Assembly: GCA_027067775.1 (NCBI GenBank) | Contig: JAMOVK010000098.1 | Location: 1 to 33,857 of the forward strand | Reading direction: 5' to 3' | DNA length: 33,857 bases | From: Deltaproteobacteria bacterium | GTDB lineage: Bacteria; Desulfobacterota; Dissulfuribacteria; Dissulfuribacterales; QOAL01 | Part shown: one piece after another, positions 15,570 to 33,857 of the stretch | Numbering within the stretch: position 1 is the stretch's first letter | Layout: each line of letters opens with the position of its first letter | Notes under the pieces: generated by a model | What the model saw: only the letters and a program-made list of their open reading frames with translations | Databases searched by the model: none | Told to the model about the DNA's origin: nothing | Program-made: the position numbers and the translations under genes

Positions 15570-15600
15570 GGGCAGGAGATTTTCTTCTGCCCTTCTTTTC
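15570..15600 (+). terminator. probable (leaky) terminator after the triheme cytochrome gene
   Basis: Arms GGGCAGGAGA (15570-15579) and TCTTCTGCCC (15583-15592) pair along 10 bp with one G-U. They enclose a 3-nt loop and are followed by TTCTTTTC. The interrupted T-tract may allow read-through into the small membrane-protein gene at 15618. Confidence 0.6.
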
Positions 15601-15617
15601 AAGGACGATACAGTATT

Positions 15618-15785
15618 ATGGACAACCTCCTTTCTCTTCTTTTGGTTCTGGTTATTTGGATTGCTATTAATCGCTGGCTTCTGCCAAAACTTGGTCTGCC
15701 ATCTTGAGGTGCTCCTGTTGATGTCGGTCGGCATCTAGAGGAGGACAAGGCCCAGAGCGGAAATAAAAAATCTGTTCCTACCTGA
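15618..15785 (+). CDS. candidate small membrane selenoprotein (in-frame UGA at 15705-15707)
   Basis: A reading frame of 55 codons, starting at the ATG at 15618 and ending at the TGA at 15783, is interrupted once by a TGA at codon 30. Residues 4-18 are strongly hydrophobic (LLSLLLVLVIWIAI) and are followed by NRWLLPKLGLPS, so the protein has one N-terminal membrane helix. After the TGA comes GAPVDVGRHLEEDKA and a short hydrophilic tail. The sequence just after the UGA folds into a hairpin with a GGUC apical loop starting 18 nt downstream, the geometry I recall for the E. coli fdhF SECIS. I therefore read codon 30 as selenocysteine. An AAGGA lies 12 nt upstream of the ATG. If the TGA is a true stop, the product is a 29-residue peptide. 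No sel genes are in this window. Confidence 0.6.
15712..15743 (+). promoter_or_regulatory. SECIS-like stem-loop directing UGA-to-selenocysteine
   Basis: A lower stem CTCCT (15712-15716) pairs with AGGAG (15739-15743). Above it comes a G.G mismatch, one U-A pair (15718/15737) and a U.U mismatch (15719/15736). The upper stem GATGTC (15720-15725) pairs with GGCATC (15730-15735), including one U.G. The apical tetraloop is GGTC (15726-15729). Exactly 18 nt separate the UGA from the loop. Bacterial SelB recognises an apical GU-containing loop at about this distance. Confidence 0.6.
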
Positions 15786-15799
15786 AGCGGATCCAGCTG

Positions 15800-15820
15800 T
15801 TCGATTGGGGACCAATCGAA
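15800..15820. repeat. perfect 9-bp inverted repeat
   Basis: Arms TTCGATTGG (15800-15808) and CCAATCGAA (15812-15820) enclose GGA. The hairpin starts 14 nt after the stop of the candidate selenoprotein. On the plus strand it is followed by an A-run, not T, so it is not a canonical plus-strand terminator. It could still be an mRNA 3'-end stabiliser. Confidence 0.55.
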
Positions 15821-16316
15821 AAAATAGGGTTTGCCTTTATTGCTCCGGTAACGAAGCACTCGGTCTATAACGCTCCAAAGCCGCTCGCTCATGCTCGCTA
15901 GATGGAGGTTTCAGCCGCTTTGCTTCACCTAGAATCCCTAGGCCCTGTTCCCAAATGTCTAATCAAACCCCTATCCTTGCCCTATTCATTTGATGAATCT
16001 TGTTACTATACTAAGTCCGTAATTCCCTATGTTTCATGTTTTTATTTTATTAACTCTGCTAACAAATGTCTTAGCAATGCCGTTAATTTATATGAATGTT
16101 TTTAGGGGCTAGGGCTAATCTCAGTAAGTCCATTACTACAACTGTCTTTTCTAGAATGCCTCGGTTTTATGCAATCAAAGGTGAAAATACGGAACGTGAT
16201 GGCCTAAAATTGCGTTGTTTTTAAAGTCCATATTTGTTGATCTTCTAATTCTAGCTGTATGCCAATAAATATTGGTACAAAAGCTATATGTTATAGGAGA
16301 AAGGGTCTAGATCGGT

Positions 16317-16397
16317 TGCAGATTGGCCAGGCTGGTGGCCTTTCATCAGGGCCCTGCTTTCCTGCCTGTGAAGGTGGCCTCCTGGCCAATTGATGCA
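16317..16397. repeat. dispersed hairpin repeat, copy A
   Basis: A long imperfect hairpin. ATTGGCCAGG (16322-16331) pairs perfectly with CCTGGCCAAT (16381-16390). Flanking TGCA tetramers (16317-16320 and 16394-16397) also pair, and further pairing occurs inside at 16340-16344 with 16370-16374 and at 16347-16350 with 16365-16368. The segment 16350-16372 is identical, in reverse complement, to 33762-33784. The two copies define a dispersed repeat of at least 45 bp. It lies 34 nt downstream of the minus-strand prenyltransferase-like gene. Confidence 0.7.
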
Positions 16398-16430
16398 GAG
16401 TAACAATGTGTTTGATGAAATTAAAAATTT

Positions 16431-33678: not shown

Positions 33679-33738
33679 CCAAATTAATTAGGTTATTCAC
33701 AAGGAAGAACTTTGATATCATTTATCATGGACAAAGGA

Positions 33739-33784
33739 ATGCAGATTGGCAGGAGGTGACTTTCACAGGCAGGAAAGCAGGGCC
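33739..33784. repeat. dispersed hairpin repeat, copy B
   Basis: This segment aligns with the reverse complement of 16350-16397. ATGCAG, ATTGGC and AGGAGG blocks correspond in order. The 23 bases 33762-33784 are identical to the complement of 16350-16372. TTGGC (33746-33750) and GCCAA (33782-33786) can pair, echoing the hairpin of copy A. It lies in the non-coding end of the window. Confidence 0.7.
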
Positions 33785-33809
33785 AAGAGCTTCTAGGGCT
33801 TGGCTTTGC

Positions 33810-33853
33810 AGAAATCCAAATTCCCTCGCTCCGCTCGGCTTGAGTGGATTTCT
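33810..33853. repeat. inverted repeat flanking a GC-rich core at the window end
   Basis: Perfect 9-bp arms AGAAATCCA (33810-33818) and TGGATTTCT (33845-33853) flank a 26-nt core with CTCGCTCCGCTCGG. This arrangement is typical of REP-like dispersed elements. It lies 25 bp from copy B of the other repeat and may be part of the same composite element. Confidence 0.6.
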
Positions 33854-33857
33854 TTTG

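Follow-up and report, generated by a model that had tools for sequence, protein, structure and literature searches.

Copies of the repeat in the window and in its genome

Two non-coding segments of a single contig that share a run of bases in opposite orientation raise the question of what element they derive from, what keeps it and whether it is read as DNA or as RNA. The window, that is, the whole stretch of DNA analysed, is the entire contig C98 (33,857 bases) of the 2.42-Mb draft genome G000. A sequence-only reading of it had proposed a dispersed hairpin repeat family with two copies, either REP/MITE-like or a structured RNA. As that reading stated, positions 16350-16372 are the exact reverse complement of 33762-33784 (23 bases; by our own arithmetic, chance expectation in 34 kb is approximately 1e-5), and the arms ATTGGCCAGG/CCTGGCCAAT described for copy A are present without mismatch at 16322-16331 and 16381-16390. 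The boundaries given for both copies were too small. The repeat to which copy A belongs extends over approximately 15838-16398, and copy B is also longer (Table 1). Both copies are worn fragments of a mobile, non-coding repeat.

Table 1. Positions of the repeat components and of the insertion locus within the window
Feature	Position	Strand	Basis
Gap holding the inserted composite repeat, between a small conserved ORF and a convergent prenyltransferase-domain gene	15828..16430	+	Synteny comparison
Outer 5' motif of the composite repeat (TATTGCTCCGGTAACGAAGCACTCGGTCTAT)	15838..15868	+	Likeness by eye upstream of the C19, C149, C45, C58 and C35 copies; absent from BLAST matches
Left hairpin remnant, left half gone; retains the outer right arm and some of the core	15869..15983	+	92-94% over 125-136 bp to C154, C58 and C149
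Inter-hairpin spacer, common to other copies	15984..16313	+	Alignment with other copies
Copy A: right hairpin, core deleted, outer arms alone left	16314..16398	+	Genome matches, alignment and folding
Copy B: truncated by the contig end to the right half of a right hairpin, with the right half of the core	33728..33857	-	C100 matches at 100% over 125 bp; C35, C72, C58 and C19 at 94-99%

Copy A with its flanks (111 bases) matched the genome as two separate blocks (query positions 1-51 and 51-91), which lie approximately 80-115 bp apart on the same contigs elsewhere; copy A has therefore lost the intervening sequence. Its earlier description as a near-complete hairpin was wrong, since it is a deletion remnant without the core: folded alone as DNA it gave a z-score of -2.2, with 10 of 200 shuffles as good, whereas the intact right hairpin from C72 gave -5.9 as DNA and -7.1 as RNA (0 of 200 shuffles in each case). 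The other half of copy B is missing because the contig ends at 33857.

The supposed pair of copies belongs to a much larger set. A 770-base query matched at least 21 contigs of G000 at E <= 1e-5, and its 61 matches do not equal 61 copies because the hairpins match both strands. The composite repeat consists of a left hairpin, a spacer of approximately 330 bp and a right hairpin, approximately 0.7 kb together; weaker similarity continues further upstream, giving 0.7-1 kb for the whole. Longer copies were found on C72, C19 and C154 and, with changes, on C35, C149 and C58. Window positions 15869-16350 show 71% identity to the C72 copy, which contains no ORF longer than 56 aa within the repeat. 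Hairpins were also found without the rest of the composite, and five contigs end inside the repeat (C98, C100, C142, C45 and C44). The core or part of it is missing in copy A, C48, C50 and the right hairpin of C154. The breakpoints of these core-less copies differ and lie, by eye, at short direct repeats, so that they look like palindrome deletions and not empty sites. In the C149 copy (locus L004, about 63.7-65.0 kb), an extra insertion of approximately 0.5 kb with apparent ORF remnants was seen by eye in the spacer.

The composite repeat of copy A lies within an insertion absent from three syntenic relatives. These same-genus genomes keep the gene order iron-sulfur protein, cytochrome c7, small ORF and prenyltransferase-domain protein, the small ORF having been found by way of its antisense reading frame. 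The alignable ends of the last two genes are 542 bp apart in the window compared with 41, 64 and 67 bp in the relatives. This synteny was present at three of the seven prenyltransferase-domain loci in relatives; the neighbours were not found at the other four. For the yraN neighbourhood of the C72 copy, the downstream neighbour was found in none of 13 relatives' loci, each with up to 1.5 kb of flank.

Elements carrying the core in related genomes

The 770-base repeat was matched in 8 of 41 genomes, G000 included; the last of these, G038, showed a weak spacer match alone (E 0.003), which is probably due to chance. In G012 and G017, which belong to the same family as G000, the core lies within an element of approximately 226 bp with the ends GTAWCTRTTCAGCGT. 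These end motifs, at no more than one mismatch, occur 389 times in G012 and 288 times in G017, compared with 0 for the reversed pattern, and none was found in G000. A total of 121 full copies were collected from the two genomes. Among 90 core matches, 65 had both ends and flanks (25 were without two recognisable ends or flanks), and 40 of these 65 carry perfect 8-bp target duplications, with a mean identity of 0.846 versus 0.305 for shuffled pairs. For duplication lengths of 4-7 and 9-12 the identity was 0.27-0.37, and length 7 alone exceeded the shuffles (0.367 versus a maximum of 0.347). In a larger set, 66 of 119 copies had perfect 8-bp duplications. The terminal repeats and target duplications establish that the homologous elements in these two relatives are MITEs: they are short, multi-copy, bounded by terminal inverted repeats and flanked by target site duplications. 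The dispersed REP/MITE-like family proposed earlier is supported. The composite copies of G000 have diverged, with no terminal repeats or target duplication definable, and we infer their MITE nature from these homologues.

Other elements enclose the same core between different ends. In G118 and G150, it is flanked by ends of the type AGTTCATCCTG (AGTTCATCCTGAAAAATGA), and the four copies matched by script show apparent 4-bp duplications (AATT, ACTT, AATT and CATT, by eye); a fifth visible copy ending in AGTTC (locus L345, unmatched by the script) is flanked by AATT and AAAT, which is not a perfect duplication. Ends of the type GGGCTGTTGCC (GGGCTGTTGCCCAAA-like) flank the core in G118, G150, G110, G207 and G386, with no clear target duplication by eye. 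The kinds of ends observed around the same core thus number at least three. Each of the genomes G118, G150, G207 and G386 contains copies that share the core but differ in their ends or outer arms.

Conservation and spread of the hairpin core

The core, approximately 90 nt long, is common to the left and right hairpins of the composite repeat, and its fold, not its sequence, is kept in dozens of related genomes. A covariance model (R1) built from 19 cores had matches in 10 of the 46 genomes from the class (E <= 1e-5). Under the stricter filters and capped scoring of a phylum-wide search, it matched at least 34 of 395 sampled genomes at E <= 1e-6, representing at least 20 of 245 genera, G000 included. 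R1 contains just seven outer pairs, and the stem and GNA-flank pairs examined below are therefore not modelled by it. The core pattern had no match in a viral collection; a match in Fredinandcohnia (L123) was judged by eye to be due to chance.

Covariation was analysed in an alignment (A2) of 31 cores from 28 genomes and three records. Four of the 29 phylum cores were left out (L243, L282, L284 and L290). The cores of G000, G001 and G006 were left out as well, because the stems of these three misalign. From 60 further regions, L323 and L325 were left out, and 5 of the 58 used had no anchor. In A2, TGTYTGA and GAGTT are invariant, and the surrounding stem varies in sequence yet pairs: its mean complementarity was 19.7, compared with a mean of 11.0 and a maximum of 12.9 for permuted partners, and 0 of 2000 permutations were as good. 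The flanks of the GNA motifs pair in 118 of 124 cells (permuted mean 78.9, maximum 99; 0 of 5000 permutations as good). These permutation counts are not probabilities, because the genomes are related. The flank types were GC.GC/GC.GC in 9 cores, GC.AG/CT.GC in 5, GC.AC/GT.GC in 5, AT.GC/GC.AT in 3 and others in 9, and a single inherited change does not account for such separate types of stem and flank. GNA stands on both sides of the internal loop in 27 of 31 cores, although the flanking pairs vary together; since these flanking bases covary, pairing takes place between the two GCGNAGC blocks.

Additionally, an alternative Watson-Crick pair was present at 14 of 58 pairs among the 121 MITE copies. 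RNAalifold applied to the mixed alignment A1 returned seven outer pairs and no more, we think because the differing stems misalign, and the anchored permutation tests were used instead. The sequence-only reading would have abandoned the family had there been at most two copies and no compensatory changes; many copies and strong compensation across genomes were found. A fold kept without its sequence across genomes suggests a function for the folded strand itself. The TGTYTGA/GAGTT loop of A2 could also be read as tandem G.A pairs beside a bulge.

Proposed mechanism

With slightly more belief than doubt, we read the family as a MITE-like mobile repeat, decayed in the window, whose core fold is selected as a single strand, somewhat more likely DNA than RNA. 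The window would then hold two decayed copies of a non-autonomous MITE-like repeat, which is defined by a long, imperfect hairpin around the conserved core. From base to tip, this core comprises a lower helix (TTCT...AGAA, GGC...GCC), the GNA/GNA internal loop, read as G.A pairs, a stem of free sequence, the loop formed by the invariant TGTYTGA.../...GAGTT, and a short stem at the apex, whose closing loop is mostly GNA or GNNA. The element would be moved through its outer ends by transposases whose genes lie elsewhere, a step supported by the target duplications of the relatives and extended by analogy to G000. Since elements that differ in their ends all carry the core, it is not an end sequence and would thus be kept for something done by the folded single strand. 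Most likely, this strand would fold while single-stranded at replication or transfer, and the DNA fold would help the element to be recognised, to survive or to be copied. In G000, the composite repeat would be old, its copies having lost parts of the palindrome by deletion.

A broader proposal, which we consider doubtful, is that a single-stranded DNA fold, and not an RNA or a transposon end, is selected across the phylum, has moved from one transposon family to another and gives an advantage to any element that carries it. If true, the fold in question, a G.A 'zipper' (GNA/GNA) in a covarying hairpin topped by a mini-hairpin, would be recognised, for example, by a host single-strand or replication factor.

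DNA or RNA as the folded strand

The main rival explanation, which we hold to be rather unlikely, is that the core is a structured RNA (a small RNA or an mRNA element) travelling in MITEs, with selection acting on the transcript. Structured RNAs typically show deep covariation together with conserved internal loops, the TGTYTGA/GAGTT loop presumably resembles a widened kink-turn, and the folding score of the intact hairpin as RNA, given above, points the same way. In line with the earlier statement that no known ncRNA could be recognised, Rfam gave no match in the window at gathering scores, and against the RNA explanation it also gave none in 10 loci with relatives of the repeat (E up to 1).

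The apical loops lean towards DNA. They were parsed automatically, with G.A pairs allowed as stem, and comprised 21 GNA, 4 GNNA and 6 others in the 31 cores; with further copies, 49 GNA and 6 GNNA were counted among 72. Usual RNA apical loops are GNRA and UUCG, in contrast to the GNA triloops that predominate here. The 17 terminator-like hairpins from the same loci that served as a small control have loops of 3 or 4 bases (8 are triloops), with 0 GNA and 2 GNNA. According to PMC4686876, extraordinarily stable DNA mini-hairpins combine a GNA or GNNA loop with at least two G-C pairs. RNA, too, contains G.A pairs and GNA loops. Furthermore, no orientation bias relative to genes was observed: 34 cores lie on the same strand as co-directional genes and 32 on the opposite strand. 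Among 93 MITEs assessed with a crude ORF finder, 66 have co-directional, 15 divergent and 12 convergent neighbours, like the background pairs (330, 64 and 71).

A strand test compared changes that keep G.U on the TTCTTGG strand with changes creating A.C. The former exceed the latter when counted over copies or along a tree, as the RNA explanation expects. In 62 copies, 115 versus 21 cells were counted; sites changed in at least two copies numbered 21 versus 6 (unpaired control 18 versus 18) and private changes 10 versus 9. On a tree of 121 copies, with a consensus structure without the inner pairs, the counts were 15 versus 3 on inner and 78 versus 30 on terminal branches, with unpaired controls of 77 versus 48 and 151 versus 152, respectively. 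With a fuller structure, the 121 copies gave 214 versus 83 cells, yet there was no excess by site (37 versus 35); sites changed in at least five copies numbered 12 versus 5 (Fisher against unpaired 0.37). Nor did the phylum set show an excess by cells, with 12 versus 15 in 31 cores and 15 versus 41 in 72 cores. In this latter set, the outer stem junction accounts for 38 of the 41 A.C cells, and the 8 G.T versus 3 A.C inside the stem are too few to use. We think that the counts by cell and on the tree are driven by a small number of frequent alleles; as this is a judgement, the test stays mixed. Overall, we lean slightly towards DNA over RNA for the core. For the structured-RNA option of the sequence-only reading, loop type and the lack of orientation bias lean away from it, and the G.U/A.C counts fall on both sides.

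Other explanations and the search for a mobilising enzyme

Long imperfect palindromes undergo quasi-palindrome correction, and the complementary changes could have arisen by such template switching between the arms, without selection. We regard this as unlikely. The commonest double changes in the MITE do lie in the outer stem, and the right arm of copy A seems, by eye, more complementary to its left arm than those of other copies. Correction would, however, erase mismatches, yet the GNA/GNA loop is retained in 27 of 31 cores as its flanks change. The N of each heptamer is also variable across the 121 MITE copies (0.73 and 0.40 conserved, compared with 0.89-0.99 at the remaining heptamer positions).

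A little less probable still is that the core moves independently, as a mobile element in its own right (for example a single-strand, REP/IS200-like one) that inserts into the hairpin tips of MITEs. Its presence between several kinds of ends would agree with this, as would the solo hairpins in the genus, which show no target duplication by eye. The differing breakpoints of the core-less copies, described above, speak instead for deletions. Moreover, the Y1 transposase is single-copy in G000, G001 and G017 and was not found in G006, G012 and G034, and its loci hold no complete core; one half-block with one mismatch was seen inside the gene in L233. A RAYT (Y1) gene flanked by repeats, as in REP/REPIN systems, was not observed in these six genomes. 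The Y1 (IS200-like) transposases at L232 (1414-1902) and in L233, from G000 and G001, are very similar by eye.

For the preferred reading, no partner transposase was found in the few loci of these draft genomes, which is weak evidence. GTAA-type ends and an 8-bp duplication are traits of IS66. One IS66 gene was detected in G012, with the MITE ends absent from its locus, and none in the other five genomes tested. Four widely spaced pairs of MITE ends proved to be separate MITEs and not an autonomous transposon; the ORFs between them (three of the four listed, judged from translations) look like ordinary genes. An assembly artefact or chance similarity, suggested by the position of copy B at a contig end, is practically negligible given the independent contigs, genomes and target duplications, and real repeats are expected at contig ends.

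Comparison with known repeats

The elements of G012 and G017 resemble prokaryotic MITEs in their short length, terminal inverted repeats, target duplications and high copy number. They differ in their interior core, which is conserved in about 20 genera and common to elements with different ends; to our knowledge, MITE interiors are usually not shared in this manner. Such interiors are usually taken for leftovers, whereas here the interior is the conserved part, with a fold that covaries in about 20 genera and is carried by elements with different ends. This poses a testable question, namely what a mobile element gains from a conserved single-strand fold, and whether it is read as DNA or RNA. 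Additionally, contigs of the draft genome G000 end in this repeat, for which the core yields a covariance model.

With the RAYT-mobilised REP/BIME/REPIN sequences, the family shares intergenic palindromes, many copies and composite arrangements. It differs in having a core hairpin of approximately 90 nt within a rod of approximately 200 nt, 8-bp or 4-bp duplications in some carriers, and no Y1 transposase seen beside the cores. Correia and ERIC sequences, compared by general form and not by sequence, are likewise hairpin-forming MITE-like repeats with a core. The d(GCGNAGC) DNA mini-hairpins share the GNA/GNNA apical loops closed by G-C pairs; here, in contrast, two GCGNAGC blocks pair mutually in a long hairpin. 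In the portions of the open-access literature on MITEs, REP and Correia sequences that were available, no description of this repeat family was found. Within the available text of a MITE review (PMC10969869), 'Desulf' occurs once, in a reference, and IS66 is unmentioned, and in that of a study of REP sequences (PMC12306157), a table names Desulfotalea and three Thermodesulfobacteriota genomes, with no sequences.

A conserved small ORF beside the insertion

The small ORF next to the insertion (15618-15827, + strand) has 69 codons, is conserved, and contains two in-frame TGA codons and a hydrophobic N-terminus. Its translation reads MDNLLSLLLVLVIWIAINRWLLPKLGLPSUGAPVD...VPTUSGSSCSIGDQSKK, from which it is a candidate small selenoprotein, and it had no Pfam or NCBIfam match. 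The antisense ORF at 15599-15892 (- strand) is probably spurious. Matches to the small ORF were identified in 29 of 46 genomes of the order. All 9 same-genus copies contain two TGA codons, and each of the 20 more distant matches contains one, two of them carrying one further stop.
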